A stretch of DNA of 33,844 bases from a virus, in IMG/VR virus record IMGVR_UViG_3300033179_000005, positions 1 through 33,844 of that record. One strand, 5' to 3'. Every line of letters begins with the position of its first letter. Positions within the stretch are counted from its first letter, which is position 1. Under the pieces are notes generated by a model. That model saw nothing but the letters and a program-made list of their open reading frames with translations, was not told where the DNA came from and did no database searches. Positions 1 to 33,610 of the stretch are shown one piece after another. The position numbers were made by a program, and so were the translations under genes.

Positions 1-158
1 CTTCGAATTACCCTCGCCCAGCGGTTCCCAGAAAGGACCCCGAGGCCCTTGCCCCCAGTTGTCGTGAGGCCCCCGGCAGTGGTTGCACAGCCCTGGCCGC
101 GTTCGCGCGCTGTGGGGCCGATCTGGGGCCTTGGCGGGGCATTGGCATGCGGTCGGCT
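1..158. other. Gene-free left edge, possible packaging/terminase leader
   Basis: No convincing gene lies here. An 80-codon minus-strand reading frame crosses the stretch but has low-complexity Arg/Ala/Pro composition and overlaps the end of the next gene, so I reject it. Read on the minus strand the segment is very GC-rich with G runs. Because the leftward operon should continue into terminase, this is where a cos or pac site could sit, but that is inference from gene order only. Confidence 0.3.
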
Positions 159-950
159 TCATGCTGCGAGCTTGGTCGGTTCGCCCCATCGAGCAGTTCG
201 GAGCGCTGTCGCGTACTCCCGGGCGAAGTGGCCAGGGAATGCCCGTTCAACGGTGGTCAGCGCCACGAGCGCGAACTGCAATCGAATGCGGTACTTCACG
301 CTCGACACGAACAGCAGCACGGGCTTGATGCCGTCCGTTGTCTTGATGTAGATGCCCGAAGGCAGATGCTGCACCTTGAGCCCTTGCTTCCATGCGCCGC
401 GCCCGGTGCGCGCTTCACCGCGGCGTGCCACGAAGTAAGACCCGACTGCGCGCTTGGCTCTGCTGCGCTTGCTGCCCGTGGCGTTCTGGCTTGCGCCGGC
501 CAGGTTGAATGCGCCGAGCTGGCTGAGAATCTGCACGATCTGCCCGCGGCTCATGTTCCCGAAGGCATCGAGCTTTGCGCCACCCCCGGGCACGGTGCGC
601 TCGGTGCTCGACAAGATGCCGCGCTGACGCAGCAAATCCTCGAATCGCTTCTGCGGTCGGCTGCCGCCTTCGATCTGCGGCAGCAGGTAGTTCGGCTGCG
701 TGCCGTACTCATCCTTGAGCCACACGCGCGCAGTGAGATCGTCCTTCTTCGCCGGCTTCAGGTACAGACTGTTTAACGTGAAACGTGTGGGCCGGTCGAA
801 GACGCGCGCCATTTCCTTGACGAGATCGGCCTTCACGTCTTGCGCTGTACGTGTGAGCGCGACGGCGCATGCATAGCGCCCTTGCTTGCCCAGCGCATCG
901 AGCTTGGCAGCCACGGCCGGGAAGTTGGTTTGCACGCTGACTGCAACCAC
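159..950 (-). CDS. gpZ-like minor tail / tail-completion protein (putative)
   Basis: A 263-residue basic protein. The N-terminal third is a helical segment beginning VAVSVQTNF, followed by a conserved-looking stretch around FDRPTRFTLNSLYLKPA. The C-terminus carries YRIRLQFALVALTTVERAFPGHF, which recalls the end of lambda gpZ-type tail-completion proteins; that match is by eye and tentative. The start is GTG one base after the upstream stop, so it is translationally coupled as the last visible gene of the leftward early operon. A virion-type protein behind replication genes and far from the tail genes at the right is odd. It fits if terminase and head genes follow just beyond the left edge. 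An HK97-gp10-like virion protein is the main alternative. Confidence 0.5.
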   Translation of the reverse strand: MVAVSVQTNFPAVAAKLDALGKQGRYACAVALTRTAQDVKADLVKEMARVFDRPTRFTLNSLYLKPAKKDDLTARVWLKDEYGTQPNYLLPQIEGGSRPQKRFEDLLRQRGILSSTERTVPGGGAKLDAFGNMSRGQIVQILSQLGAFNLAGASQNATGSKRSRAKRAVGSYFVARRGEARTGRGAWKQGLKVQHLPSGIYIKTTDGIKPVLLFVSSVKYRIRLQFALVALTTVERAFPGHFAREYATALRTARWGEPTKLAA

Positions 951-951
951 G

Positions 952-1143
952 TCAGCCCCCCTCGCTTGGTCTGCGCTCGTCGGCTGCCTTCAGCGCTTCA
1001 AGCGCGCGCCAGCACGCCGGGCAGCGCCAGCGGCGCGAGATCGGCAGGAAGGTCCAGCCCGAGGGCAAGAGCTGATCGTCGAGCACAGTGCGCCCGCAAC
1101 CATCGCGGCACGCTGTGGTGTCGGGCGGCTTCACCGTGGCCAT
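952..1143 (-). CDS. Small zinc-ribbon-like phage protein
   Basis: A 63-residue protein with two cysteine pairs, CRDGC near residues 11-15 and CPAC around 41-44, separated by a WTFLP..RRW segment, which suggests a small zinc-binding fold. I chose the ATG at 1143 because GGAG lies about 9 bases upstream; the reading frame is open to a start at 1167. It overlaps the upstream gene by 13 bases and sits one base before the next start, so it is part of the leftward operon. No specific function is recognised. A nucleic-acid-binding or adaptor role is possible. Confidence 0.6.
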   Translation of the reverse strand: MATVKPPDTTACRDGCGRTVLDDQLLPSGWTFLPISRRWRCPACWRALEALKAADERRPSEGG

Positions 1144-1379
1144 GTCGGCTGATCTCCACGGTTGCACGCGCGAACCAGCTCATGCATGGCCTGCCAGTGA
1201 ACATCGCCGGCCACGGCGTACAGCTCGGCCCGGTACTCGGGCGTGATGTAGCCGACCTGCGCCGCGAAGGCGCAGGCAGGCCCGCGCGATATGCGCCGGG
1301 CTGCGCACACCATGCACCCGGTCGTGAAGCCGTGCCAAGCACGCTCACTCGCGGCGATGCAGTTCGCGCAGTCGGTCAT
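1131..1379 (-). CDS. Small Cys-containing hypothetical phage protein
   Basis: An 82-residue protein beginning MTDCANCIAASERAWHGF with CxxC near the start and CMVC around residues 22-25, so four cysteines could bind one metal. The rest is helical and rich in Ala, His and Trp. Its ATG overlaps the stop of the upstream gene in an ATGA arrangement, typical of coupled translation. The family is not recognised. The preserved frame, tight overlap and paired Cys make it likely to be real. Confidence 0.6.
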   Translation of the reverse strand: MTDCANCIAASERAWHGFTTGCMVCAARRISRGPACAFAAQVGYITPEYRAELYAVAGDVHWQAMHELVRACNRGDQPTWPR

Positions 1380-1666
1380 TCGGCCGGCTCACGCGAGGTC
1401 AGTGCTGCACTGATGCCGACGCTCGCATTGATGAACGACGGGGTTTCGGACGTGCCCACCCAGCCGAGCGAGCCGTGCACGTTGACCTGCACGTTTTTCG
1501 TGTCGTCATCGAGCAGCACGCCGATGAATGCAGCAGCAGCAGCGAGGGCCTGCGCTTGGTCAGCTGAGTGCACGGGCTGCGCTTCCACGATCTTCGCTAG
1601 CTCGGCCTCGACCATGCGCAGCGCTTCGGCTTTGTCGGAAGCGCGGACTACAAACGAGTAACTCAT
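1376..1666 (-). CDS. Hypothetical phage protein
   Basis: A 96-residue soluble protein starting MSYSFVVRASDKAEAL. The first 60 residues look like an alpha/beta fold with an amphipathic helix (ALRMVEAELAKIV), and the later part contains VQVNVHGSLGW. I chose the ATG at 1666 because a strong GAAAGGAA ribosome site lies just upstream; the longer upstream frame is Arg-rich and lies in the 29-base gap and the methyltransferase gene. It follows the methyltransferase in the leftward operon. The function is unknown. Confidence 0.65.
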   Translation of the reverse strand: MSYSFVVRASDKAEALRMVEAELAKIVEAQPVHSADQAQALAAAAAFIGVLLDDDTKNVQVNVHGSLGWVGTSETPSFINASVGISAALTSREPAE

Positions 1667-1695
1667 TCTGGATTTCCTTTCGGGGGTTGTGAACA

Positions 1696-2478
1696 TCAAA
1701 TGCCGGCCGTGTCCATGTAGGCGCGGATCACGGCTGCGGCGGCTTGCGGCACGATCGCGTTCCCGTAGGCGCGCAGTCGTCCCACGCGGCCGGGTATCCC
1801 ATGAGCCAGCGGGAAAACGCCGGATTGAGCTGGTCGCGCTTTGCCGTCTGTGCAGGCGAGCCATTCGACATCGGCCCAACCACGAGTTGCACCTGATTGC
1901 AGAGCTGCTCGCCTTTGGTCCGACCGCCCCGGGTCTGGTACGGCAGCGAGTTCGCGTGTCGATGGTCGCGCGCTGCTGGTGTCGCCCACGAAGAAAACAC
2001 GCGGTCGCGCATGCGGGGCGCCAATGCCAGCAGCCGGGAAATCAACCGCCGCGACGGTGTAGCCGATGTCCTCCAGCTCAGTGCAAACAACGTCGAGCCA
2101 TGCGAGGCCGTCAGCGCTTGCAACCTGTTCGCCAAAGACCACGACAGGTCGGCGCTCGCGGATGAGCCGCGCCCATGCCGGCCAAAGGTGGCGCTCGTCT
2201 TCATGCCCCGCGCCGCGGCCGGCTTTGCTGAAGGGCTGGCAGGGACATGAGCCTGTCCAAACAGGTCGGTCGGCGGGCCAGCCGGCGAGGCGCAGCGCGT
2301 AGGCCCATCCGCCGACACCGGCGAAGAAGTGGCAATGCTCGTAGCCATCGAGTTCCTCGCTCGCCAGGTCGCGCACGTCGCGCGTGTCAACGTGGCCCGA
2401 CGTGATGTGCCCGGCGGCGACGAGATTGCGCAGCCAGTGCGCGCAGTACAGGTCGGTGTCGTTGTAGAAGGCCTGCAT
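1696..2478 (-). CDS. C5-cytosine DNA methyltransferase
   Basis: A 260-residue SAM-dependent DNA cytosine-C5 methyltransferase, likely used to modify phage DNA against host restriction. Visible motifs: motif I FFAGVGGW at 51-58, motif [12 protein letters not shown] at 78-87 with catalytic Cys80, motif VI as GEQV at 116-119 (usually ENV), motif [14 protein letters not shown] at 156-165, and motif X YGNAIVP at 238-244. The target-recognition region between VIII and X is only about 70 residues, so the enzyme is compact. About 50 residues precede motif I, more than in minimal enzymes. ATG at 2478 lies 2 bases after the upstream stop; the longer upstream frame is Arg-rich and overlaps the RusA gene. 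No restriction partner is visible, so it is probably an orphan enzyme. Confidence 0.88.
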
Positions 2479-2480
2479 GG

Positions 2481-2876
2481 TCAGAACGGCAGCGCCGCCT
2501 CTTCGCTGCACAGCACCGGCTCGCCGAGAAGCTCGAACTGCGCGCCGGATGCCGGCGGGCCGAACTCGACGCGCACCGACCACGCCCCACGAATCTGCGC
2601 GTAGGCGTAGCGAACTCGGGCCGAGTAGCGATCGTTCACGCCGAGCCAGTCGGCGATCTGGTCGCGTGCGCCTTTCAGCGCTTGGCGCAGGTTGTCATCG
2701 TCAAGGCCACCGGACGGCGCAACGCGCGTCAGTAGCACCGTGCAGGGAATGCTCGGGCGCTGCGCGGTCGCGAGCATCCATGCGACGGCGGTGCGCTCGC
2801 GCTTCACCCGCCCATGACGCACGCGCCAATCTTCGCGAGCGTTTGAGCCCTTGGTGCGGAGCGGGACCACGATCAC
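2481..2876 (-). CDS. rusA: RusA-like Holliday junction resolvase
   Basis: A 131-residue protein of RusA size. The diagnostic acidic motif GLDDDNLRQALKGARDQI spans about residues 57-74, with Asp59-61, Asn62, Lys68 and Asp72, followed by WLGVND ending in Asp82. These match the metal-binding and catalytic layout of RusA nucleases, which cut four-way junctions made in phage replication and recombination. It starts with GTG overlapping the upstream stop as GTGA, in the leftward replication operon. It would work downstream of the RecT and exonuclease products encoded on the other strand. Confidence 0.85.
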   Translation of the reverse strand: MIVVPLRTKGSNAREDWRVRHGRVKRERTAVAWMLATAQRPSIPCTVLLTRVAPSGGLDDDNLRQALKGARDQIADWLGVNDRYSARVRYAYAQIRGAWSVRVEFGPPASGAQFELLGEPVLCSEEAALPF

Positions 2877-3355
2877 GCGGCCACCTCGGCGGCTTCCTCT
2901 TCGGCGATCTGCTGCCGTGTGAGGTCATGGTGCAAGGCTTCGCGCCACATCGCGCGCTGTGCATCATTGAGGCCGCGCGGGTCGCTTTCCTCGCGGGCCT
3001 TGAGCTTCCACGCCCAGCGCTTCGGGGCTTGCTCGCGCGCTCGCACATGGTCGGCGAAGCGGCGCAGCAACACGCGCAAGCGATCGGGGTCGGTCACGCG
3101 GCGCGAGAACGCGACCGGCTTCGGTTCGCCGCGCAGCCGCGCGCGCTCGGTTTCGTCCCACTGCTGCACCTGCGTGATCTCGGGCCAGCGGTTCGGATCG
3201 GCCCAGGCGTGAGCGCTGCACAGCCGACCGTGACCGACATCGACGCACCAGAGGTTCGGGCAGCCGTGCGCGGCGCACATGCGCTGCGGGTCGAGATCGC
3301 CACCACCGGCACGCGCGTTCGCATCGTGCTTGGCCTTGGCCTGCGCATAGCTCAT
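2873..3355 (-). CDS. Cys/His-containing protein of the replication operon
   Basis: A 160-residue protein. The N-terminal part (about 25-50) has CAAHGCPNLWCVDVGHGRLCSAH, a Cys/His cluster that looks like a zinc-binding knuckle. The remaining two-thirds is helical and highly charged, ending in an acidic tail EEEAAEVAA. Proteins with this N-terminal phrase commonly sit between phage replication initiator and RusA genes. The role is not established; a DNA-binding or replisome accessory function is an inference. Its ATG at 3355 overlaps the stop of the replication gene as ATGA. Confidence 0.65.
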   Translation of the reverse strand: MSYAQAKAKHDANARAGGGDLDPQRMCAAHGCPNLWCVDVGHGRLCSAHAWADPNRWPEITQVQQWDETERARLRGEPKPVAFSRRVTDPDRLRVLLRRFADHVRAREQAPKRWAWKLKAREESDPRGLNDAQRAMWREALHHDLTRQQIAEEEAAEVAA

Positions 3356-4284
3356 TGCATTGCCCTTTCATCGGCGTAGTTGCCATCGATGACCTTGACG
3401 AAGTTCGTCGGCAGCAGCAGCCAATCGAACGTTGCATGCCACACCCGCCCGGTGTCGCGGTTCGGTCGCCCTCGGCCGGTCAGATGCCTCGACTGCGCGG
3501 CATGGCCGAAGTACCAGCGGAACCACTCGAGCCCGGCGTCGGCGTCGAATCGCTCTTGCGCGCAGACCTCGCGCCATCGGGCCCGCAGATGCTCTCGGCG
3601 CGGCTCGTTGAGCACCGACACCGCAGGCAGCATCGGCAGCCCGGCGTGGTACGCCTCGAGCAGCGCGGCATAGGGGCAATCCGGCACCGCGTAGGGCTTC
3701 GGGTTCGGCGGATCAGTGCCCGGAAGCTGCTGTTGCGGGTCGTCCTGCGAAGCCTGGACGACGAGCGGCGCAGCCGCGGTAGTCTTTTCTCCGGTATCAG
3801 GATTCAGGATTCGGGATTCATGATTCAGGGGGTTGCGGCCCCCTCTTGATGGCGGGCCGACTCCTGGAATGTTCTCGGAGTCTTCCGGGAGTGCTCCCGG
3901 AGTCTTGGTGTCTTCATGCGGTCCCGACTCCTGGAATTTCTTCGCAACATGGAGTCGGAGTGGAGGGGGCTTGATGGCACTAGGTTTCTCGGAGTAGTGC
4001 GGGGTCTGATGCTTCTTGAACATCGAAATTTGAATGAAGCGCTCGCCGTCGATCTCGTAGCGCACCACGAATCCATGCGCTTCAAGCTCGGCGAGCAGCG
4101 GCTCGACCTCGATCGAATCGAAGCGGAACAGCTCGCCCTTGATGCGCTTCGGCCGGTCCTCGAGCCGGCCCTCGCGGTCGGCCAATGTCCAGAGGCCGGC
4201 GAAGCACAGGCGCGCTTCGACCGAGCACTCGGCTAGGTCTTCGTTTGCGAAGAAACCGGGCTTGAGGTTGCGTGCGCGCGGCAT
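3352..4284 (-). CDS. Phage replication initiator, lambda O-like organisation
   Basis: A 310-residue protein. Residues 1-100 (MPRARNLKPGFFANEDLAEC, then RLCFAGLWTLADREGR and FIQISMFKKHQTPHYSEKPS) form the winged-helix-type N-domain common to phage replication proteins. A low-complexity linker rich in Pro, Glu and Ser follows at about 105-195. The C-terminal part ends with WHATFDWLLLPTNFVKVIDGNY, a signature of phage replisome organisers that recruit helicase. The linker DNA holds tandem 7-bp iterons (3794-3828), mirroring the lambda origin inside gene O. The start at 4284 overlaps the upstream stop as TGATG; a GTG at 4287 is also possible. No helicase gene follows in the operon, so the host helicase is probably recruited. 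Confidence 0.75.
   Translation of the reverse strand: MPRARNLKPGFFANEDLAECSVEARLCFAGLWTLADREGRLEDRPKRIKGELFRFDSIEVEPLLAELEAHGFVVRYEIDGERFIQISMFKKHQTPHYSEKPSAIKPPPLRLHVAKKFQESGPHEDTKTPGALPEDSENIPGVGPPSRGGRNPLNHESRILNPDTGEKTTAAAPLVVQASQDDPQQQLPGTDPPNPKPYAVPDCPYAALLEAYHAGLPMLPAVSVLNEPRREHLRARWREVCAQERFDADAGLEWFRWYFGHAAQSRHLTGRGRPNRDTGRVWHATFDWLLLPTNFVKVIDGNYADERAMQ
3794..3828. repeat. Five tandem 7-bp iterons, candidate replication origin
   Basis: On the plus strand five contiguous 7-mers read GTATCAG, GATTCAG, GATTCGG, GATTCAT and GATTCAG. They lie in the linker-coding part of the replication gene, where they encode LNHESRILNP on the minus strand. Tandem iterons inside the initiator gene are the classic arrangement of lambdoid origins. 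More direct and inverted repeats follow at 3857-3937. Origin function is inferred. Confidence 0.6.
3857..3937. repeat. Direct and inverted repeats beside the iterons
   Basis: A 14-bp direct repeat CCGACTCCTGGAAT occurs at 3857-3870 and 3924-3937. A 9-bp repeat CGGAGTCTT occurs at 3876-3884 and 3898-3906. A perfect 8-bp inverted repeat TCCGGGAG / CTCCCGGA with a 2-base gap spans 3884-3901. Together with the iterons this makes a dense repeat region in the replication gene that could hold initiator binding sites or a strand-opening element. Confidence 0.5.
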
Positions 4285-4559
4285 CACGCCGGCTCCGTGT
4301 TCGCTGGCTCAGCCGGCGCCGGTGGCGTCGTGAGGCGCAGCGGCGGCGGCACGACGGGCCGATCATCGAGCAGCGTATGCAGCCGCTTGAGCGTCACATA
4401 GCCCGGGTTCGCGATCTTGCCCCGCATGAACTTGCTGAGCCAGGAGTACGAAACGCCGGTCTCGGCCGGGATGTGCTTCCACTGGCCGCGGTGCAGGTCG
4501 AGCAGCCTGCGGACCTCTTCGTCGAGGTTCGGCTCAATGATTTCGGGTGATGTGTTCAC
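4284..4559 (-). CDS. HTH DNA-binding regulator, first gene of leftward operon
   Basis: A protein of about 91 residues with a single helix-turn-helix region: LLDLHRGQWKHIPAETGVSYSWLSKFMRG at roughly 19-47, where the ETGVSYSWLSKFMRG segment is a recognition-helix pattern. It ends in a Pro-rich tail. I chose GTG at 4559 because the sequence upstream (4560-4643) is promoter-like and the residues it would encode look unlike the rest. GTG lies only about 9 bases past the predicted -10 box, so the mRNA may be nearly leaderless. It is divergent from the repressor and is a candidate Cro- or CII-like switch protein. Confidence 0.6.
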   Translation of the reverse strand: MNTSPEIIEPNLDEEVRRLLDLHRGQWKHIPAETGVSYSWLSKFMRGKIANPGYVTLKRLHTLLDDRPVVPPPLRLTTPPAPAEPANTEPA

Positions 4560-10909: not shown

Positions 10910-11139
10910 TGAATCTCTATCTCGACCTTGCAGGCTTGGCCGAAGCGCTGTCGATCTCTGAATCGACTGTGAAGCGCCTCGTGCGGCAAGATGGATTCCC
11001 TAAACCACGCGAGCTAAGCGGCCGGCGGGTCGGCTGGCTGGTGCGCGAGGTTGTCGAGTGGTGCGAGGCGCGGCCAGTTTCAACGATGCTACCGCCTGAA
11101 GGTCTGCAAGCTGCTCATAGTGGGCGGCCAGCGTCGTAA
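10906..11139 (+). CDS. AlpA-type excisionase / DNA-binding regulator
   Basis: A 77-residue winged-helix protein of MerR/AlpA type: LDLAGLAEALSISESTVKRLVRQDGFPKPRELSGRRVGWLVREVVEWCEAR (about 5-56). The pattern of HTH, then P.P..L..R..W and an E-W/C helix is typical of AlpA and phage Xis proteins. It is the last gene of the rightward operon and converges on the integrase gene, overlapping its 3' end by 140 bases, the expected place for a directionality factor. Transcription from PR would therefore make Xis only in the lytic state. Two ATG codons (10906 and 10909) are possible starts. Confidence 0.78.
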   Translation: MMNLYLDLAGLAEALSISESTVKRLVRQDGFPKPRELSGRRVGWLVREVVEWCEARPVSTMLPPEGLQAAHSGRPAS

Positions 11140-12379
11140 GCCATTGCCGACGCTCTGCATCGTAGCGGTGCAAGTTGTAGATGCCGACGATCCCGGGCGG
11201 CATGTGACCGAGCACTGCCTCGGCCACATCTTGCGGGCACCCTAGCGCCGACAACATGGTGCGACTCGTGCGGCGCAAATCATGCGGCGCCCAATGCGTG
11301 ACCGGCAGCCTTGGCCGCTCCACCTTAGGCCGCGTCGTGCTGTACGGCATGTGATACCACGCAGCCACGCCGAGCGCCTTCTGCTCGATGTGCCCGACAG
11401 CCGATCGGGATTTGAAGAGATACCCCTTCGGGTTCACTGCGAGCAGTCGCCGAACCACGTCTTCAGCGCGACCAATCAAAGGCACGCGCAAATCATGAGC
11501 GCCCTTGCGGCGCGCGTTCTTGGTCTTCGCCTTCGGCACCGTCCACCACAAACCATCGTCCTCGTCCGAAATCTCGCATGCTTCCATGGCGACGAGTTCG
11601 GCGCCCCGGGCACCAGTCCAGAGGTACAGCGTCAGCGCATCACAGACGATGCGGCTGAAGTTCGGCAACCACCGCACCAGCGTGCCGACCTCTGATTCCT
11701 TCAGAACGCGCTTATCGATCCCGACCGGCTTGCCCCCGATGAGCTTGCCCTTTGAGATCAACTGACCGCGCATGATTGAGCGCCAGTGATTCGCTGCATC
11801 TTCGGGCAGCTCGCCGGCATCAAGCGCGCGATCCCATGCCGCGCCCAGCTCTTGCCGCAACTTGGCTGCCTGCACGGGGATGTGTTTGTACGATTCGAGC
11901 AGCCCGAAAGCATCGCGCCGGGTCACCTCCGCGGCAGGCATGTTTTCGATCGGGTCTAGCATCGTGTCGAACATGCGGCGCACTTCAGCCGCGCCCTTCG
12001 GCTTGCGGTTGACATCGACGCGCCCGTCTAGATATGCCTCCACCAGTTTGCGAACCGTGTAGGCGCGCGATGTCTTCGCGGCCTTCTCTGCCGTCGCGCT
12101 CGCTCGCTCGGCTGCCTTCTCTTGCTGCTGCTCAGCGATGACTTCCTGTCCAGCATTGCGAGCTGCGCGCGCTGTCTCCCATGCTGCGACGGCTTCCGTG
12201 CTCGACATCGCGGGCCAATGGCCGAGCTTGACCTGACGCAGCTTGCCGTCGCGCAGGTCGCGATAGCGGTACGTCCAAGCCTTCGTTGTCTGTGTCGATT
12301 CAAGGCGCAAACCAGGGCAGTCGGGAATCGTAAGATGCGCGCCGGGCGCCAGTAGCTTGGCCTGTCTGGAATTGAACAT
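11000..12379 (-). CDS. int: Tyrosine integrase, P4-like
   Basis: A 459-residue site-specific recombinase. The N-terminal arm-binding region has PDCPGLRLESTQTTKAWTYRYR and RQVKLGHWP (about 19-56), the DUF4102-type signature of P4-like integrases. The catalytic residues are visible: Arg258 in TGARGAEL, Lys283 or Lys285 in VPKAKTKN, His366 and Arg369 in HDLRR, His392 in LGH, and Tyr401 in GIYNLHRYDAERR. I prefer ATG 12379 because AGGAA lies 8 bases upstream; ATG 12397 would add six residues. The C-terminal 40 residues are Arg/Ala/Pro-rich and are encoded over the excisionase gene. The promoter region overlaps the first arm-type repeat, so integrase may repress itself. Confidence 0.92.
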   Translation of the reverse strand: MFNSRQAKLLAPGAHLTIPDCPGLRLESTQTTKAWTYRYRDLRDGKLRQVKLGHWPAMSSTEAVAAWETARAARNAGQEVIAEQQQEKAAERASATAEKAAKTSRAYTVRKLVEAYLDGRVDVNRKPKGAAEVRRMFDTMLDPIENMPAAEVTRRDAFGLLESYKHIPVQAAKLRQELGAAWDRALDAGELPEDAANHWRSIMRGQLISKGKLIGGKPVGIDKRVLKESEVGTLVRWLPNFSRIVCDALTLYLWTGARGAELVAMEACEISDEDDGLWWTVPKAKTKNARRKGAHDLRVPLIGRAEDVVRRLLAVNPKGYLFKSRSAVGHIEQKALGVAAWYHMPYSTTRPKVERPRLPVTHWAPHDLRRTSRTMLSALGCPQDVAEAVLGHMPPGIVGIYNLHRYDAERRQWLTTLAAHYEQLADLQAVASLKLAAPRTTRQPRAPASRPAGRLARVV

Positions 12380-12682
12380 GGTATAGGTTCCTATCATGAA
12401 GTTAGCAGTGCCTGCACATGGTATAGCTTTTCGCCTTCAAAACCCATACCAAGCGATGACTGTCACGACCTTTTGTGACCTGATCTGACCGAAAGCTATA
12501 CCGGAACCTACACTGAAAGACGCATTGAAGATCAACAGGTTATCGGCGGAAAGCGAGATTTCATGCGGGCTACAGCCCGACCACGAAAATGCGCATTCAC
12601 CCTTGATGCAGCAGTGCCGACGCTAGGATTGGCGCGGCTTCCAAGGGGTACACCCCCCGAAACCCATACCAGAACCCATACT
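12380..12682. other. attP: Probable attP region with arm-type sites
   Basis: Seven copies of an 11-bp motif near AAACCCATACC or GAACCTATACC lie beside integrase. On the minus strand they are at 12390-12380 and 12430-12420. On the plus strand they are at 12440-12450, 12492-12502, 12504-12514 (weaker), 12660-12670 and 12672-12682. Clusters on both sides of a repeat-poor centre (12515-12655) fit arm sites flanking a core. I could not identify the core. No tRNA 3'-end sequence is visible. Confidence 0.6.
12461..12490. promoter_or_regulatory. Three GACC motifs at exact 10-bp spacing
   Basis: GACC recurs at 12467-12470, 12477-12480 and 12487-12490, two of them as TGACC. One-helical-turn phasing inside the att region resembles binding sites for an excisionase multimer. 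This is a suggestion from spacing only. Confidence 0.35.
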
Positions 12683-12706
12683 TCGCCCGTGTAGAGTGGC
12701 CCTTGC

Positions 12707-12729
12707 TGGTGGCAATGTTGCTGCCACCA
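12707..12729 (+). repeat. 8-bp stem-loop in the leader of the next gene
   Basis: TGGTGGCA at 12707-12714 pairs perfectly with TGCCACCA at 12722-12729 across a 7-base loop, ending 4 bases before the AAAAGGA ribosome site. The hairpin would lie directly upstream of the ribosome site in the mRNA and might affect its access. The rest of 12515-12749 shows only a 6-bp hairpin (CGGGCT / AGCCCG near 12567-12580) and no gene. Confidence 0.45.
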
Positions 12730-12749
12730 ACCCAAAAGGAACCACCCTC

Positions 12750-12875
12750 ATGAAACGCATCTTCCTCATCGCTTCGACGGCCCTCGCTGCACTCTCAGCA
12801 GTGGCCATCACCTACGTCGCCGGGCAAGCCCTGTCGCTGATCCCGAAGGCCATCGCTGCACTTGTGGGAGGTTGA
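12750..12875 (+). CDS. Short membrane or secreted peptide (41 aa)
   Basis: A 41-residue product starting MKRIFLIASTALAALSAVAI: two positive residues followed by a hydrophobic stretch of about 25 residues, so it is either a signal peptide or a single membrane helix, ending ALVGG. AAGGA lies about 10 bases upstream of the ATG. It is the first gene after attP, and in the lysogen it would be next to the host junction, so it might be expressed from the prophage. The small size limits certainty. Confidence 0.5.
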   Translation: MKRIFLIASTALAALSAVAITYVAGQALSLIPKAIAALVGG

Positions 12876-12877
12876 TC

Positions 12878-13093
12878 ATGCAAGTCGAATTCCGAACCGG
12901 GCTCTACTTCATTTCGCACCAGAGGCGGCCAAGTGGCCGAGGCTGCTGGGCGTTTCAGTTTGAAGACAGCCCCGAGCCATGGTTTGCACCGACAGCGCTG
13001 ACCATCAGCGAAGCGAAGAAGGCAGCGACGCAAGAGGCGAACCGTCGCGCTGGCCCTGGCGGCATCCACACAATCGTGGAGGTGCTGCCTTGA
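12878..13093 (+). CDS. Hypothetical small soluble protein
   Basis: A 71-residue protein: QVEFRTGLYFISHQRR, then GRGCWAFQFEDSPEPWFAPTALTISEAKKAATQEANRRAG. The pattern of beta strands followed by an Ala-rich helix suggests a compact alpha/beta fold. ATG 12878 has GGGAGG upstream and follows the preceding stop by 2 bases. No family is recognised. The two genes form a short unit ended by a clear terminator. Confidence 0.6.
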   Translation: MQVEFRTGLYFISHQRRPSGRGCWAFQFEDSPEPWFAPTALTISEAKKAATQEANRRAGPGGIHTIVEVLP

Positions 13094-13148
13094 CAGCGCC
13101 TATCATGGCTACGCCGCACTAGCAGCCGTTGCCTATCCCTAACTTCGC

Positions 13149-13175
13149 AGCCCGTCTACATGGCGGGCTTTTTCT
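13149..13175 (+). terminator. Rho-independent terminator
   Basis: AGCCCG (13149-13154) pairs with CGGGCT (13164-13169) across a 9-base loop and is followed by a T-rich run (13169-13176). It ends the short two-gene unit 12750-13093. The rest of 13094-13298 carries no gene; the next gene should have its own promoter, which I could not place with confidence. Confidence 0.72.
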
Positions 13176-13298
13176 TTGCCCGCGTTTTCTGTGTGGAATT
13201 GTTCACGGCTTCGGGATTTGATGCCGTTGGCAATACATTCCTACTCAGGTGTGTCCGAACAAGTCACACCATCGATTCAAAAACAGGAGCGTGAACCC

Positions 13299-14411
13299 AT
13301 GGCAACGAAATGGACGACCGAAGAGCAGCAAGCCGTCGCGGATGAAGGCGTGCGCTTGTGGAGTGCTGGCAAGGCTTCCTCGCTGATGAAAGCATTCGAC
13401 CTGGCGCAGAGCGTCATCCCGAAGGCCCGGCGCAGGACGATTTCAACGACAAGCAAAGTCCCGTGGTTCGTGTCCGCGCTCAGAGTCCCCAAGAAGGCAC
13501 CAGATCAGCCGCAGAGCGCAAAGCCGCAACAGATTGCTACAGAATCATCACTATCCGAAAAAAACGCCTCTGAGGGCGAATCCGCCAGCCGGCGGCGTGT
13601 GGTCTGGAGCGAGGCCGAGCAGAAGCTGATTTGCACCAACGCAGCGCGCCTGCTCCATGACCTGCAAGCGAACGGCCCGCGCGATGCAATGGAGAAAGCG
13701 CAGCTCGTCGTCCTCCCTCCTGAGCGGCAGCGGCATATCGCCTCGATGACTACCCTCGCGGGCTGGTATCCCGATGGACTGAAGCATGCGAGCGCAGCGC
13801 TGCGCCGCGAACTCGACAAAGCGGCTCAGGCGAAGGCTCGGGATGAAGCGGCGGCAGCGGCAGCAGCAGCGCAGCCGGTGGCCGAAGTCCAAGCGCTCCC
13901 CGCCGTTGTCACCCCCACGACATCAGCGGTCGCATCGATCTTCGGAGACTGGACGCACATACGCGAGCACTTGGTGCAGGAGATCGCGAGCCTCGTCGCC
14001 GAGGGCATTCATCGCGGCCTTGCGAGCGTGCAGCTTGCCGCGCCGCAGGACACCACACCGGCGCGACACACCCCTTTCGTCGTTGATCCCCATCCGAAGA
14101 TTCGACCTCCATCGGTCCTCGTGGCAGGACTGAAGGACGCGACAGCCTCGCAGATCAAAGCCGAGTTCGGATCGAAACTCGATCTCCGTTTCATCACGCC
14201 CGACAAGTCGAAGGACCAGCTCCGGCAGATGACCGAGCAGGCCGAGACAACCATCGCGGTGACCGACTTCCTCTCGCACTCGCACACCGACATCATCAAG
14301 GCGCGTTCAAAGCATCACGTCGAATGCAGCGGCGGCATGACGAGCTTGCGGCAGCACCTTGCGAACATCGCCGGGCTGCAATTGAACGGCAGCAGCGCGC
14401 ACGCAGGCTGA
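13299..14411 (+). CDS. Two-repeat Myb-like plus DUF2325-like protein
   Basis: A 370-residue protein with three parts. Residues 4-57 (KWTTEEQQAVADEGVRLW ... KARRRTISTTSKVPWF) and 102-156 (VWSEAEQKLICTNAARLL ... PERQRHIASMTTLAGW) are two related copies of a Myb/SANT-like or HTH unit. Residues 172-195 are an Ala-rich linker with an 8-Ala run. The C-terminal part, 271-357, contains SVLVAGLKDATASQI and an LSHSHTDIIKARSKHHVEC segment, resembling DUF2325-type domains (conserved D/F-x-SH and a late GG). It follows a terminator and so probably has its own promoter. AGGAG lies about 10 bases before the ATG. A DNA-binding sensor or regulator is plausible; the function is unknown. Confidence 0.68.
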   Translation: MATKWTTEEQQAVADEGVRLWSAGKASSLMKAFDLAQSVIPKARRRTISTTSKVPWFVSALRVPKKAPDQPQSAKPQQIATESSLSEKNASEGESASRRRVVWSEAEQKLICTNAARLLHDLQANGPRDAMEKAQLVVLPPERQRHIASMTTLAGWYPDGLKHASAALRRELDKAAQAKARDEAAAAAAAAQPVAEVQALPAVVTPTTSAVASIFGDWTHIREHLVQEIASLVAEGIHRGLASVQLAAPQDTTPARHTPFVVDPHPKIRPPSVLVAGLKDATASQIKAEFGSKLDLRFITPDKSKDQLRQMTEQAETTIAVTDFLSHSHTDIIKARSKHHVECSGGMTSLRQHLANIAGLQLNGSSAHAG

Positions 14412-14415
14412 AGCC

Positions 14416-14889
14416 ATGCTGTTGGACACTCGACCGCCGCGCGGCGGCGGTGGCGCCGAGCCATGGCGCGACGAGCCGAACCGCGTCGCGTGGCGCGATG
14501 CTGCGACCGGGCTGCAATGCCTGATCCTTCGCGGGCCGCTCGGGGCCCTCAACGGCTACGTGCGCGTGCCGCGCGACCACCCTCTGCACGGCAAGCGCTG
14601 CGGTCAGCGCCGCGTCGAGCGCGGGCTCGTTGTGCATGGCGGGCTCACGTTCTCGGGCTGCCTTCGCACTCGAAGCATGAAGCGCGGGCATTGGTTCGGG
14701 TTCGATTGCGCGCACTGGCGCGACCTCGTGCCGGGGTTGATTGAGCTGCGCGCGGGCCTGCCCGAAGAGCTGGCCGAAATGCTCGCCCAAAACCAAGGCG
14801 CCCCGCTCGAGGTCTATCGGCCTGTCAGCTACGTGCGTGACGAGTGCACAGCGCTCGCGCAGCAGCTCGCACGGAAGGGGACACGATGA
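14416..14889 (+). CDS. Conserved hypothetical phage protein
   Basis: A 157-residue protein with LRGPLGALNGYVRVPRDHPLHGKRC (about 39-63), VHGGLTFSGC (74-83) and HWFGFDCAHWRDLVPG (92-107). The GYV-VP-HP-HGK and HGGLTF...WFGFDCAH blocks recur in phage proteins of unknown function. Conserved His, Asp and Cys suggest a metal-binding or enzymatic site, but no reaction can be named. It starts 5 bases after the preceding gene and opens a run of overlapping genes that extends to 18586. Confidence 0.68.
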   Translation: MLLDTRPPRGGGGAEPWRDEPNRVAWRDAATGLQCLILRGPLGALNGYVRVPRDHPLHGKRCGQRRVERGLVVHGGLTFSGCLRTRSMKRGHWFGFDCAHWRDLVPGLIELRAGLPEELAEMLAQNQGAPLEVYRPVSYVRDECTALAQQLARKGTR

Positions 14890-15506
14890 GCCCGGACCTC
14901 GCCTACATCAGCTCGACCCTGAAAGGCGCGACAGCGAAGATGACGCTCCGCGAGAAGAGCGAGGCGCGCGAGTGCTTCGAGCATTGGCGCAGTGAGTGCC
15001 AGCGCATCGGCCCCAACCCCCCCGAGGTCGTCGCGCACACCGTGCACGCCATCATCGACGAGCGCATGCAGCACATGCTCGCCACGTCCGTGCATGGCCC
15101 CGATGTGCAGTGCCGCAAAGGCTGCGCATCGTGTTGCCGATTGCAAGTCGATGTGTATGCCCACGAGGCCGAGCTGCTGCACCTCATCGCGCGCGTGGAC
15201 GGCATCGAGATCGATGCAGAGAAGCTCGCGCGACAGGCTTCGATGCCGTGGCATCAACTACCGATCGAGGATCGGCGCTGCCTCTTTCTGAGTGCTGACA
15301 ACGAGTGCAGGGTTTACGAACACCGGCCCGGCGCTTGCCGTAAGTACATGGTGAAGTCAGAGCCTGATTTGTGCGACATGGACAAGCACCCGGGCGGTGA
15401 GGTCGCGATCGTTTTCAGCATGGAGGCCGAAATCATCAGCTCGGCCGCGATGACGGTCTACGGCGCTGACAACATGGCAGCGATGCTGCTCAAGACACGG
15501 GGGTAA
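14886..15506 (+). CDS. YkgJ-family cysteine-cluster protein
   Basis: A 206-residue protein of the YkgJ (CxxCxxCC-type, metal-binding) family. The first cluster CRKGCASCC covers Cys76, 80, 83 and 84. Later cysteines sit in RRCLFL (132), NECRVYEHRPGACRKY (141 and 151) and DLCDM (163), matching the family spacing that binds Zn or an Fe-S centre. The family is widespread in bacteria but poorly understood. Here it overlaps the previous gene by ATGA and lies in a phage operon of small genes. The start at 14886 was chosen over an upstream in-frame ATG because of this overlap. Confidence 0.82.
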   Translation: MSPDLAYISSTLKGATAKMTLREKSEARECFEHWRSECQRIGPNPPEVVAHTVHAIIDERMQHMLATSVHGPDVQCRKGCASCCRLQVDVYAHEAELLHLIARVDGIEIDAEKLARQASMPWHQLPIEDRRCLFLSADNECRVYEHRPGACRKYMVKSEPDLCDMDKHPGGEVAIVFSMEAEIISSAAMTVYGADNMAAMLLKTRG

Positions 15507-15511
15507 GAACA

Positions 15512-15748
15512 ATGATCGCTGCTAAGGCTTTTTTCGTCGTCACTGCTGGTGTGCTGCTCGATGAGCCGATGCCCGAGCACTCGCGACAGTGGGGCTACAC
15601 CTCGCAGGACCATGAAGCCGATGCGAAGCTCGAGCATCACGAGCGCACGGCCTTTGAGACTCGGCGCGATGAAGCGCTCGCCTATGCGCGCGACCGCATC
15701 GACCCCGCCAATGTGAATTGGGTGCGGCTGGAGTTCGTGTGGCTCTGA
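15512..15748 (+). CDS. Hypothetical small phage protein
   Basis: A 78-residue protein, MIAAKAFFVVTAGVLLDEPMPEHS with a short hydrophobic N-terminus (about residues 3-16) and a charged helical remainder (HHERTAFETRRDEALAYARDRI) ending in VRLEFVWL. The hydrophobic run is short for a membrane helix. It begins 5 bases after the YkgJ stop. No family is recognised. Confidence 0.55.
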   Translation: MIAAKAFFVVTAGVLLDEPMPEHSRQWGYTSQDHEADAKLEHHERTAFETRRDEALAYARDRIDPANVNWVRLEFVWL

Positions 15749-15765
15749 CCGATGCACTTCTCAGC

Positions 15766-15972
15766 ATGTGGGTGATTTACGACCACCCGAGCGACTTGCC
15801 CGAGCACATCGTGGCGCGGCGGCACGAAGTGCATGCGACCGGGCCGATGCCCACCGACGACCTGATCCTCGGCAACAGCGTGAGGTCCGTGCGCGCCCAA
15901 TTGCCGCAAGGCTTGGATTGCTTGCCGCGCGCGCCTGGAGATGATCCGCACATCATCGAGGTGTGGCTATGA
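15766..15972 (+). CDS. Small conserved phage protein, MWVIYDHP type
   Basis: A 68-residue protein starting MWVIYDHPSDLPEHIVARRHEV and ending DDPHIIEVWL. Proteins with this opening occur widely in phages and prophages of proteobacteria, always small and uncharacterised. I chose ATG 15766 because it reproduces that N-terminus; GTG at 15739 with GGAG upstream is an alternative overlapping the previous gene. The stop overlaps the next start (ATGA). Confidence 0.62.
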   Translation: MWVIYDHPSDLPEHIVARRHEVHATGPMPTDDLILGNSVRSVRAQLPQGLDCLPRAPGDDPHIIEVWL

Positions 15973-16205
15973 CGCGCGTGACGCGGCAGGACGTGGCTGC
16001 TGCAAGCGCAGCGCTCGCGCAGCATCTGCAATCGCTGCGCCGGGCCGAGCCAGTGTCGAAAGCCAAGCCGGTCAAGTGCGACTGCCTGAACTGGTGCGGC
16101 GATGACCCGTGGCTAGAGGATGGTCGCGCGAAGAAGTGCGCGACCTATGCAGCGCTGCACCCGCCCAAGTGTTCCCACTGCGGTGGCACGGGGTACGAGC
16201 CATGA
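15969..16205 (+). CDS. Small zinc-finger-like protein
   Basis: A 78-residue protein. The first 30 residues are an Ala-rich helix (RQDVAAASAALAQHLQSL). The rest holds CDCLNWCGDDPWL around 36-48 and KCATYAALHPPKCSHCGGTGYE at the end, giving two Cys clusters likely to bind zinc. The CSHCGGTGYE ending resembles DnaJ-type zinc knuckles. It overlaps both neighbours by ATGA. Function unknown. Confidence 0.62.
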   Translation: MTRVTRQDVAAASAALAQHLQSLRRAEPVSKAKPVKCDCLNWCGDDPWLEDGRAKKCATYAALHPPKCSHCGGTGYEP

Positions 16206-16564
16206 ACGACACGACCGACAACATCACAGCGCTGCCGACCGCGACTGCGTTGCCTGACAACCCGCTCGGCATCGCGCAGAGACATCCGGGCTTCTGCAAT
16301 CACGAGTCGGTGCTGCTCGATGAGCACTCGCGCACTGTGCAGTGCGCCAAGTGCGGCGCGACGCTCGAGCCTTTCAGTTTCTTGCTCGGCAATGCGCGCT
16401 TGATCGAGCGGGCTTGGCAGAGTCATCGCGAGGTGTCGAGGATCGCGAAAGAGATCGCCGAGCGTGTGCACATGCTGAAGAAAGAAGAGTTGCGACTGCG
16501 CGCGATGGTCAAGCGTTTGCAAGACAAGAGCGGCGCAGTCTTGGACGTGCGAGGGAAGCTATGA
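16202..16564 (+). CDS. Zinc-ribbon plus coiled-coil phage protein
   Basis: A 120-residue protein. Residues 30-60 include GFCNHESVLLDEHSRTVQCAKCGATLEPFSFL, a Cys/His zinc ribbon with CNH and CxxC. The C-terminal half (SRIAKEIAERVHMLKKEELRLRAMVKRLQDKSG) is a strong coiled coil. The ribbon-coil arrangement suggests an oligomeric nucleic-acid-binding protein. The ATG overlaps the stop of the preceding gene; a longer upstream frame reads through it and is rejected. Confidence 0.65.
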   Translation: MNDTTDNITALPTATALPDNPLGIAQRHPGFCNHESVLLDEHSRTVQCAKCGATLEPFSFLLGNARLIERAWQSHREVSRIAKEIAERVHMLKKEELRLRAMVKRLQDKSGAVLDVRGKL

Positions 16565-16800
16565 ACACATTTCACCGCGGCCAGTTCGTGCAGATCACCT
16601 ACGGCGGCGAGACGATCGAGGCCATGGTGATGCTCGCCTCAGCTAACAGCCGGTCGCTCATGCTCGGCTTCAAGGGCGTGCTGTACGCGCACGGCGGCGT
16701 GTACCCCGGCGCAATGCCGGTGCTGATGGATGACGAGGGCGTGTATCGCGACCTCGTGAAAAACCAGCCGGTGCAGATTCAAGCGCGGACCATGCAATGA
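16561..16800 (+). CDS. Small beta-rich phage protein
   Basis: A 79-residue protein, MNTFHRGQFVQITYGGETIE, followed by MVMLASANSRSLMLGFKGVL and a C-terminal VYRDLVKNQPVQIQ. Alternating hydrophobic residues suggest a small beta barrel, as in SH3-like or Sm-like adaptors. The ATGA overlap with the previous stop decides the start. No family is recognised. Confidence 0.6.
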   Translation: MNTFHRGQFVQITYGGETIEAMVMLASANSRSLMLGFKGVLYAHGGVYPGAMPVLMDDEGVYRDLVKNQPVQIQARTMQ

Positions 16801-17018
16801 GCAATGCCCGAGAGCGAATCCTCGAGCGCCGGCTGCAAGCCGCGCACATCGGCCGACCGAAGAGGCCGCGCCGTATCTCGATGCTGTTTGAAGGGCGCGT
16901 TTACAGCGGGCATGCGAGCACGCACAAGCTACGGTCAGGGCGTCGCTATAACTTGCGCCTGCGCATCTGGCGCAGGTTTCACACGGTGCCCATGTTCGGG
17001 CCGAAAGGACAACCATGA
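16797..17018 (+). CDS. Very basic small protein
   Basis: A 73-residue protein with many Arg and Lys residues (RERILERRLQAAHIGRPKRPRRISM, RYNLRLRIWRRF), suggesting nucleic-acid binding. It starts at ATG 16797 in the ATGA overlap. A frame beginning at 16804 overlaps it and is rejected because it breaks the chain of overlaps. Function unknown. Confidence 0.55.
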   Translation: MSNARERILERRLQAAHIGRPKRPRRISMLFEGRVYSGHASTHKLRSGRRYNLRLRIWRRFHTVPMFGPKGQP

Positions 17019-17425
17019 CGGCGGGCGCGGGCAAGTATGACGAGCTGTGCACACAGGTGCGCGAGCAGGCAAACGCCGATGGCGTGGTGCTGTTGATCGT
17101 GAACGGCAGACACGGCAACGGCTTCAGCGTGCAGGCACCGATCGACGTGCATGCCACGCTGCCGACCGTGCTCGAGTCGATCGCTGAAGGCATTCGCGAA
17201 GATTGGACCGGCGACAATGCCGGCCCCATGACCGACCACCACACCGCGGCATTTACGCTGCTCACCCTCGGCAAAGCTGCCGGCATGCTCGACCGCGAGG
17301 ACATCCGCAGCAAGGTGCTCGATGCGCTGCGCGGCGGCACGCTAAACCCGCACTACCTCGTGAAGCTGCGCGATCAGTTGACCGAGGTTCTGATCGCGAG
17401 CCGACCCGTGGAACCGAACGCATGA
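17015..17425 (+). CDS. Conserved phage protein with CTD-like helix
   Basis: A 136-residue protein, with a beta-strand core GVVLLIVNGRHGNGFSVQAP at about 23-42 and a helical tail (MTDHHTAAFTLLTLGKAAGMLDREDIRSKVLDALRGG). The GNGFSVQAP phrase is common in phage proteins of unknown role located in small-gene blocks like this. ATGA overlaps link it to both neighbours. Confidence 0.62.
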   Translation: MTAGAGKYDELCTQVREQANADGVVLLIVNGRHGNGFSVQAPIDVHATLPTVLESIAEGIREDWTGDNAGPMTDHHTAAFTLLTLGKAAGMLDREDIRSKVLDALRGGTLNPHYLVKLRDQLTEVLIASRPVEPNA

Positions 17426-18087
17426 CGAACGAACTACGCGCAGGCTTGCCGCCGCTGCCGCCGAAGATGCAGCGCCTCTACATCGACAGGCGCGGGTTTC
17501 CGGTGCCGTTCTTCGTCGCGATGGTCAACGGCGAGCCCGACCACCGGGTTGTCGATCCGCGCGCGATGCAGGTCTGCCTGCGTCAGTTCCGGTGCTGGAT
17601 TTGCGGCGGGCCCCTCGGCCGGTTCCGTTCGTTCACGATCGGCCCGATGTGCGCGCTCAATCGCATCAACAGCGAGCCGCCGTCACACCTCGAGTGCGCG
17701 CGCTATGCGATGACTGCCTGCCCGTTTTTGTCCAGGCCGCACGCGAAGCGCCGCGAGGGCGGCATGCCGGATCAGCCGCTGAATCAGCCGGCCGGCGTGC
17801 ACCTCGACCGCAACCCCGGAGTTGCGCTGATCTGGACGACGCGCACTTTCAAGCCCTTCAAGGCTTCAGATGGTGTGCTCTTCGACCTCGGGCCCGCCGA
17901 GTCAATGGAGTGGTACGCAGAGGGGCGCGCTGCCACGCGCGCCGAGATCGATGAGTCGATCGCCTCAGGGCTGCAAAAGCTGATCGAAGCGGCGGGGGTT
18001 GACCGCGACGAGAACGACCTGCGCGAGCTGCAACGGCGCATCGATGAGCTGCGCGGCGTCCTCGATCTGGCGTTTGCAGAGGCCTGA
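17422..18087 (+). CDS. Hypothetical phage protein with Cys motif
   Basis: A 221-residue protein. The N-terminal half has FRCWICGGPLGRFRSFTIGPMCALNRINSEPPSHLECARYAMTACPF (about 52-98), with CxxC and three further Cys, a likely metal site. The later part reads TTRTFKPFKASDGVLFDLGPAESMEWYAEGRAATRAEI and ends in a helix. Proteins with the RCWICG..LG..FTIGPMCA..R..SEPP..C phrase are seen in phages and predicted to be enzymes or zinc proteins, with no proven role. The ATG overlaps the upstream stop. Confidence 0.68.
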   Translation: MTNELRAGLPPLPPKMQRLYIDRRGFPVPFFVAMVNGEPDHRVVDPRAMQVCLRQFRCWICGGPLGRFRSFTIGPMCALNRINSEPPSHLECARYAMTACPFLSRPHAKRREGGMPDQPLNQPAGVHLDRNPGVALIWTTRTFKPFKASDGVLFDLGPAESMEWYAEGRAATRAEIDESIASGLQKLIEAAGVDRDENDLRELQRRIDELRGVLDLAFAEA

Positions 18088-18089
18088 CC

Positions 18090-18392
18090 ATGAACACCGA
18101 ACTCGAACAGATGAGCCCGGCCGAGCTGTCAGCGCTACACGATGTGCTTCTGAAGGCTATCGAGCAGATGGATCGGAACGTCCTGCACTTTCGACGGCTG
18201 CGGCTCTTTCTCGCATGGGGCGGGCTCGCGCTGGCCGCGGCCTCGACGGCTGCGCTGTTCGTGGCCGAGAACGTCGTGCAGTTCACGCTCGGCGGCATGC
18301 AGGCCGCGCTTTGGATCGTGATCGCACTGATGAATTTCGGCGGGCCATCGGTTACCGAATTGCTCGCGAAGTGCATCAGAAAGCGGCCATGA
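18090..18392 (+). CDS. Two-helix membrane protein
   Basis: A 100-residue protein with a soluble, charged N-terminal 35 residues and two hydrophobic segments: LFLAWGGLALAAASTAALFVA (about 39-59) and FTLGGMQAALWIVIALMNFGG (about 65-85), ending in a basic KCIRKRP tail. This suits a hairpin inner-membrane protein with both ends inside. It lies 2 bases after the preceding stop. A holin is possible in principle, but it is on the opposite strand from the lysis genes, so superinfection exclusion or an accessory role is as likely. Confidence 0.62.
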   Translation: MNTELEQMSPAELSALHDVLLKAIEQMDRNVLHFRRLRLFLAWGGLALAAASTAALFVAENVVQFTLGGMQAALWIVIALMNFGGPSVTELLAKCIRKRP

Positions 18393-18586
18393 AGACAAAG
18401 CGCGCCACGGTCAGCCGCACCGAAGAGCAGCACGCCGTGCGAATGCTCGACGATGGTTTTGCGCAGGCGCGCGAAGCGATCGAAGAGGCTGCGTGGCTGA
18501 TCTGGAACTCGATACGCAAATTCGACGGCGACCCGTCCGACCAGCTCGGCCACCCGATCGAGTGCGGGTGCATCTACTGCAATTGA
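18389..18586 (+). CDS. Small hypothetical protein ending the accessory operon
   Basis: A 65-residue protein, MKTKRATVSRTEEQHAVRML, with a helical middle and a C-terminal PIECGCIYCN Cys cluster (three Cys in six residues). The start overlaps the previous stop as ATGA. It is the last plus-strand gene before the convergent lysis genes; a repeat element begins 5 bases after its stop. Confidence 0.6.
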   Translation: MKTKRATVSRTEEQHAVRMLDDGFAQAREAIEEAAWLIWNSIRKFDGDPSDQLGHPIECGCIYCN

Positions 18587-31422: not shown

Positions 31423-31764
31423 TCAGTTCGGCAAGGTGGTTTGTGCCTTCAGCACGCGCACGAACGCGCGCGCGCTGGCACCTGTGGCGGGCTTCGCGGG
31501 CGGGCGTGGTGCCCACCGGCGCGGCATGAATTCGGCAGCGTGAAACATGCTCTTGTCCTTCTTGCGTAGCGGGCCGTTCGCTGCTGCTGCCATCGACTGC
31601 GCCCAGCGCTCTAGCTCTGCGCCGGGCCCGATCCCTTCCACGTGCATGAAGGCGAGCCAGTCGCCGAACTCAGCGGCCGACATGCGCTCGCCCAGCTCTT
31701 CCACCGTGCAGCCGAAGTGCCAGGCCAGCCAGTGCGCTGCACGCAGCTCCGGCCGGCGGGTCAG
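31423..31764 (-). CDS. Downstream (T-like) half of frameshifted tail chaperone
   Basis: A 113-residue extension made only after a -1 frameshift at A AAA AAC (31770-31764). Its sequence continues as LTRRPELRAAHWLAWHFGCTVEELGERMSAAEFGDWLAFMHVEGIGPGAELERWAQSM, where the WLAWHFGCTVEEL...DWLAFMHVEGIGP part resembles gpT/DUF4035-type chaperone regions. No start with a ribosome site fits this frame alone. The fused product would be about 226 residues and would hold the tape measure during tail assembly. Confidence 0.78.
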   Translation of the reverse strand: MTRRPELRAAHWLAWHFGCTVEELGERMSAAEFGDWLAFMHVEGIGPGAELERWAQSMAAAANGPLRKKDKSMFHAAEFMPRRWAPRPPAKPATGASARAFVRVLKAQTTLPN

Positions 31765-32102
31765 TTTTTTTCGGCGTCCTCGCCGACGCCGCTGAGGCGC
31801 ATCGCGGTGTTGAACAGTTCGATCACGGCTTCGCGATGGTTCGCGCCAAAGATCGACCACTGTGCAGGCGTCATCAGCAGCGCGCCGTCCGCATCGAGCA
31901 CGCAGCCGGCGAGCACGTGCGGGATCGTCATGTACAGCGATGCCGGGTCGTTGCGGTCCAGCCCCGATGCCAATTTCTCCACACCGAGGCGCGTGGCCAA
32001 TCCCATTTGCACGACGGCGACCGAACCACCGAGCGACTCGACTGCAACTTCTTCGCGCAGCCAATCCGCATGCACGAGCGCTGCGCGCTTGATCATCGTC
32101 AT
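31761..32102 (-). CDS. Tail assembly chaperone, upstream (G-like) frame
   Basis: A 113-residue helical protein starting MTMIKRAALVHADWLREEVAVESLGG and ending SGVGEDAEKN. It is the normal product ahead of the slippery site, with the stop one base after AAC. The small size, the place between tail tube and tape measure and the slippery heptamer identify it as the G-type chaperone. The ratio to the fusion product is set by frameshift efficiency. Confidence 0.82.
   Translation of the reverse strand: MTMIKRAALVHADWLREEVAVESLGGSVAVVQMGLATRLGVEKLASGLDRNDPASLYMTIPHVLAGCVLDADGALLMTPAQWSIFGANHREAVIELFNTAMRLSGVGEDAEKN
31764..31770 (-). promoter_or_regulatory. Programmed -1 ribosomal frameshift site
   Basis: On the minus strand the heptamer A AAA AAC (read from 31770 to 31764) sits in the zero frame as GAA AAA AAC followed at once by TGA. 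A -1 slip joins the G-like frame to the T-like frame. The position between tail tube and tape measure is where siphoviruses use this device. No clear stimulating pseudoknot was identified. Confidence 0.82.
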
Positions 32103-32124
32103 GGGTCATGTGCTCCGAAGTCGA

Positions 32125-32772: not shown

Positions 32773-32799
32773 GATGTGTGCTCTCGTGTGGGGTGGTGG

Positions 32800-33255: not shown

Positions 33256-33259
33256 GTCG

Positions 33260-33595: not shown

Positions 33596-33610
33596 GGCCG
33601 CAGCGCTCGC

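Follow-up and report, generated by a model that had tools for sequence, protein, structure and literature searches.

The window, a stretch of 33,844 nt comprising positions 1 to 33,844 of the linear virus record IMGVR_UViG_3300033179_000005, carries at 13299-14411 a gene for a protein of 370 amino acids. The open reading frame starts with an ATG at 13299 and runs over 370 codons, as read from the sequence. The gene and the features surrounding it are:

11000-12397, minus strand: tyrosine integrase, 51-53% identical to the integrases of Acidovorax phage Aval and Burkholderia phage KS9
12594-12614, plus strand: attP core, codons H-S-P-L-M-Q-Q (compare HTPMMQQ in MutS)
13149-13169, plus strand: terminator-like hairpin with T-run, separating the attP-side genes from the gene for the 370-aa protein
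13285-13289, plus strand: Shine-Dalgarno-like AGGAG, 9 nt before the ATG (read from the sequence)
13299-14411, plus strand: coding sequence of the 370-aa protein, with two N-terminal repeats, a helical middle part and a C-terminal DUF2325-like domain
14416-18586, plus strand: rest of the operon, about a dozen small genes, many with 4-nt overlaps

The sequence-only reading had placed the gene behind a terminator and just past attP. The attP core indeed lies about 700 bp upstream, and the hairpin is present, but it is terminator-like only, and since the scan returned 2 sites versus 1.8 expected in shuffles, it says little by itself. A simple scan of 12300-13700, not decisive in itself, gave no sigma-70-like promoter. 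The gene heads about a dozen closely packed plus-strand genes (13299-18586), including phrog_2164, a CxxCxxCC protein and phrog_1621, and the operon faces the lysis genes on the opposite strand; the next gene begins 4 bases past the stop of the 370-aa coding sequence. In the related phage L003 the distal operon is present and the gene for the 370-aa protein is absent, and the L003 contig ends there. Among the operon partners, the phrog_2164 protein (14416-14889) has distant relatives in Streptococcus, Bacillus G and Mycobacterium phages, and 14886-15506 encodes the CxxCxxCC zinc/iron-chelating protein (PF03692, E=1.3e-8).

To find relatives, the 370-aa protein was subjected to tblastn, which gave no match in 50,697 phages or 72,556 plasmids; the relatives L077 and L083 gave nothing against phages and plasmids, nor did cellular DUF2325 domains against phages. 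In a protein search of 399 Burkholderiales genomes, matches reached 15-17 bits only, which is noise. NCBIfam held no match for the 370-aa protein, and none of 14 family members matched PHROGs at E<=0.01. PHROGs matches of the whole protein to head fibre and head morphogenesis families (E=0.02-0.03) were rejected, as they cover only an Ala-rich helix. Single-protein peptide-pattern scans of viral and genome contigs returned no relative because the automatically chosen patterns fell in variable parts, and alignments combining the 370-aa protein with cellular DUF2325 domains yielded no confirmed relative. Two loci, L062 and L055, came up with a degenerate DNA pattern designed for T-x-F-[VLI]-S-H and then G-G-M-T, and a profile search with an alignment including both led to 16 loci in metagenomic viral contigs (L072-L087), among which the contigs of L062 and L055 are counted again as L072 and L073. 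Three profile searches of genomes (369-399 genomes each, in overlapping sets) gave no confirmed relative; as these sets are too small to carry a claim that the family is confined to viruses, we state that it has so far been found only in viruses from environmental DNA.

Within the 370-aa protein the following parts were delimited, all on the plus strand:

13308-13466: repeat 1 (aa 4-56), helices at aa 7-22, 29-39 and 55-62, pLDDT about 86-97
13596-13760: repeat 2 (aa 100-154), helices at aa 105-120, 127-138 and 150-156, pLDDT about 80-93 over most of the repeat and 66 at its end
13776-13871: long helix (aa 160-191) in the AlphaFold2 model, possibly a coiled coil
14106-14372: C-terminal DUF2325-like domain (aa 270-358), four beta-alpha units, pLDDT 91-97
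14262-14279: aa 322-327, T-[KD]-F-[IL]-S-H, a conserved motif located where strand 3 ends

The sequence-only reading had proposed looking for the same architecture in other prophages next to attP, and the architecture was found in other phages. Two repeats plus the C-terminal domain are shared by the 370-aa protein, L072, L074 and L075, and in L074 and L075 the family gene lies a little upstream of an integrase; BLAST aligned the 370-aa protein with the L074 and L075 proteins over the full length at 24-27% identity (E about 1e-12). One repeat precedes the C-terminal domain in seven loci, some of them near-identical (L078, L079, L081, L083 and L085-L087). The C-terminal domain stands alone, with 91-99 aa, in L076 and L077, it carries a C-terminal extension in L073, L080 and L084, and in L082 it is joined to an unrelated N-terminus.

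To characterize the N-terminal part, the protein was aligned with itself. The claimed alignment of two segments (4-57 and 102-156) holds far above chance: the internal repeat reached a local alignment score of 63, compared to 24.6 +/- 4.5 in shuffles, and 0 of 5000 shuffles reached 63. With a repeat profile built from the relatives only, aa 4-56 scored 30.0 bits and aa 100-154 scored 29.0 bits, while the best of 2,000 shuffles scored 8.7 bits. Repeat 1 shows the pattern W-[ST]-x-x-E ... AxxxAQ ... P..RRR. Both repeats are basic (pI 10.7 and 9.2), as are those of four one-repeat relatives (10.0-11.4), and AlphaFold2 predicted three helices per repeat with confidence. The repeats had been called Myb-like; two small helical repeats were obtained, but neither a profile nor a structure match connects them to Myb. 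PF00249 gave no match at E<=10 in the window or in seven relatives, and as a control it matched in 10 of 14 control genomes, in one above the cut-off. Searching Pfam with each repeat and the PDB sequences with the repeat profile gave no Myb/SANT match either, and no Myb/SANT chain is among the listed PDB fold matches of the 370-aa protein. Like Myb/SANT repeats, the phage repeats are small, three-helical and begin with W-x-x-x-E, and their W-[ST]-x-x-E start accounts for the Myb guess. However, the phage repeats conserve the first Trp of the Myb pattern but not the second and third, and the first helix and the spacing between helices 1 and 2 are longer. The N-terminal repeat domain as a whole had no match in Pfam, PHROGs or PDB. 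Because no DNA-binding family was matched by the repeats (Pfam, PDB sequences, PF00249), the helix-turn-helix claim is drawn from helices and charge only; the repeats would probably bind nucleic acid.

The C-terminal part had been described as DUF2325-like over aa 271-357, and this kinship was recovered as a remote one. The whole protein matched DUF2325 (PF10087) with E=0.01 (16.4 bits) and the excised C-terminal domain with E=0.00089 (19.8 bits, over 83 residues), both scores lying below the curated Pfam cut-off of 33.6 bits. DUF2325 was matched by 8 of the 14 family members, with a best E of 1.1e-6. When the viral C-terminal domain was compared with 14 cellular DUF2325 domains by hhalign, a probability of 97.1% was obtained (E=6e-11, 84 columns); the negative control, the repeats versus DUF2325, gave 0.3%. 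Using a profile lacking the 370-aa protein, its C-terminal domain scored 71.4 bits, and 2,000 shuffles reached at most 8.6. When all fetched loci were scanned in six frames, the C-terminal profile matched the family and then, with far lower scores, mostly cellular DUF2325 proteins, and the repeat profile matched the family only. The family matches to DUF2325, the hhalign kinship and a fold match to a viral protein named for DUF2325 together identify the domain as a divergent branch of the DUF2325 superfamily and not as a member by Pfam's cut-off. It shares with DUF2325 the fold pattern, the length, an S-H motif after strand 3 and a full-length profile alignment, but VGGR and HHDGG, motifs of the long chromosomal branch, are missing and G-L, T-K-F-I-S-H and N-G-G occur in their place, and the domain is joined to another N-terminus.

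Structure prediction with the 14-sequence alignment resulted in a mean pLDDT of 77; a model made without the alignment (pLDDT 44.8) was discarded. As the pTM was low (0.34), the model gives no relative placement of the domains. Following the repeats, long helices were predicted at aa 160-191 and 218-242. The C-terminal domain was predicted as a Rossmann-like fold of four beta-alpha units with strands at 272-276, 295-299, 317-321 and 339-343, and the invariant S326-H327 follow strand 3. In 14 aligned proteins T322, F324, S326 and H327 are invariant, and the invariant residues G277, L278, T322, F324, S326, H327 and G345 lie immediately behind strands 1, 3 and 4. In Rossmann- and receiver-type folds this strand-end edge usually holds the ligand or the active site. 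The pocket residues are conserved far better than the remaining protein; the 370-aa protein itself has Asp in place of the Lys of T-K-F-I-S-H.

Foldseek against PDB listed mostly Rossmann-type dehydrogenases and CheY-like receivers (best E=0.025, none below 0.001), and the family had no sequence match among solved structures. In BFVD the best fold matches were A0A8D4GMA3 (E=5e-13) and A0A6J5RMQ4 from an uncultured Caudovirales phage (E=1.5e-10), both about 21% identical to the 370-aa protein over about 276 columns; unlike it, they correspond in size, with 251-271 aa, to the one-repeat form, and have no function recorded. The third, A0A8S5RIN7 of virus ctHG14 (E=1.9e-4), is a DUF2325 domain-containing protein, but with 484 aa and only 11% identity. 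Taken together, the viral family is real and was previously uncatalogued in the libraries searched, and it is of the DUF2325 type with a new N-terminal repeat.

The surroundings of the relatives were then compared. In L074 and L075 a YqaJ recombinase and other early genes precede the family gene and the integrase, and in L077 RuvC and DUF2800 precede it. The L076 gene lies between the B and A subunits of a gyrase/topoisomerase (type II topoisomerase). In L082 a small helix-turn-helix-like gene (judged by eye) comes before and a ParA-type ATPase after. The genes of the L078 group adjoin DUF932, and in L062/L072, judged by eye, head genes are adjacent on the opposite strand and an XRE-type gene follows. 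No neighbour is common to all relatives; DNA metabolism appears to recur around them. Across L078, L081, L083 and L085-L087 the DUF932 protein is 82-99% identical, while the family protein beside it is only 31-36% identical between some of these loci. Upstream in L081 (143-1021) and L085 (351-1205), histone-deacetylase-like proteins of the acetoin utilisation type were recognized by eye only.

Starting from the directly supported family, domain borders, predicted folds, DUF2325 kinship, invariant-residue positions and operon position, we tentatively propose, with a probability of roughly 40%, that the 370-aa protein is an early phage accessory protein, a one-component factor whose binding to nucleic acid is gated by a ligand. 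Contact with DNA would be made by the two basic three-helix modules, a dimer may be held together by the long helices, and the C-terminal domain would bind a small ligand in a pocket formed by G-L, T-x-F-x-S-H and G-G, located where strands 1, 3 and 4, respectively, end. Ligand in this pocket would control nucleic-acid binding, and the target process would most likely be phage DNA transactions (recombination, replication, segregation) or early transcription. The basic, confidently helical repeats, the invariant residues at the ligand side and the DNA-metabolism neighbourhoods argue for this proposal, whereas the lack of a DNA-binding family match, of a neighbour common to all relatives and of a reported DUF2325 ligand argue against it. 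As the C-terminal domain also occurs alone (L076, L077) or with a C-terminal extension (L073, L080, L084), an N-terminal DNA tether is not general in the family. Of the roles that the sequence-only reading had offered, a sensor-regulator is possible and close to our proposal, while lysogenic conversion is weakened, because the gene heads an operon and its relatives have genes for recombination, topoisomerase or partition functions around them.

A rival view is that the gene is a moron which the lysogen expresses from the end near attP, where it would serve defence, superinfection exclusion or some other trait of the host. Its reading direction leads away from attP, past the terminator-like hairpin, and at the same place KS9 and Aval hold short, lineage-specific accessory genes that also read away from attP (TIGR02391 in KS9); in addition, no relative of the gene occurs in the related phages checked. 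However, it heads about a dozen packed genes and does not stand alone, no PADLOC model of known anti-phage defence matches the 370-aa protein or three operon partners, and its relatives lie in early DNA-metabolism neighbourhoods and not at a fixed prophage end, so that we regard a moron as unlikely. Small, fast-changing early phage genes with shuffled N-terminal parts often target host proteins. An early lytic inhibitor or host-takeover protein, in which the partner of the helical modules would be a host protein instead of DNA and the C-terminal domain would be a binding module, would suit such a small and fast-changing early gene with 0, 1 or 2 repeats or an unrelated N-terminus (L082); yet the conservation of the pocket residues is more in keeping with a common ligand than with diverse protein targets and the repeats are strongly basic, and this role is likewise improbable. 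Catalysis by the C-terminal domain (e.g. on a nucleotide), with T, S and H as catalytic residues and the N-terminus bringing the domain to DNA, is very unlikely: the invariant polar T322, S326 and H327 cluster at strand ends and the domain also occurs free-standing, but it is small, and the Asp in place of the Lys of T-K-F-I-S-H implies that a highly conserved side chain is dispensable in the 370-aa protein.

The proposed ligand-gated factor bears on DUF2325 as a whole. This domain occurs in several bacterial phyla and one filamentous phage ORF carries the annotation, and neither a function for DUF2325 nor a ligand for any DUF2325 protein is reported in the literature found, which is thin. The Campylobacter jejuni DUF2325 protein Cj1384 is strongly induced by light and oxidative stress, its gene showing the highest induction of all in that study, with no function assigned (PMC9426514). 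The viral family thus offers an entry point to the domain, and its branch with a minimal pocket (G-L, T-x-F-x-S-H, G-G) and forms of 91-99 aa is an easier object for ligand finding. That a metagenome-only viral DUF2325 branch with a new nucleic-acid-binding domain constitutes a new class of phage regulators that bind DNA in response to a ligand is doubtful at present; if true, the ligand would give DUF2325 its first function. The family further illustrates that phage proteins present in some 16 environmental contigs can escape searches of cultured phages entirely.

Regarding the phage itself, no terminase, portal or capsid gene is among the annotated ORFs of 1-4287 and 31423-33844, and the relative L054 continues beyond the right end of the window; as the record is linear, it is therefore probably incomplete or permuted. 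The attP core sits between arm-type repeats, which lie at about 12380-12512 and 12661-12681. Integration into mutS has been described (PMC5296598). Two Burkholderia prophages and L009, all with related integrases, are inserted in mutS at HTPMMQQ or ETPMMQQ and give it a new start as well as a new N-terminus; a similar motif, HTPMM, is present in Aval. In the attP region of the window (12398-12700), a TTG-started frame from 12525 continues in frame into the attP core, so that integration probably provides MutS with a new N-terminus encoded by the phage, as is the case in L004, L005 and L009. The last of these, a 42.5 kb viral contig, ends inside mutS with a phage-supplied start (L009:1-340, MDKAVQEITESKQEVAGRSASRETPMMQQYLRIKADHP).
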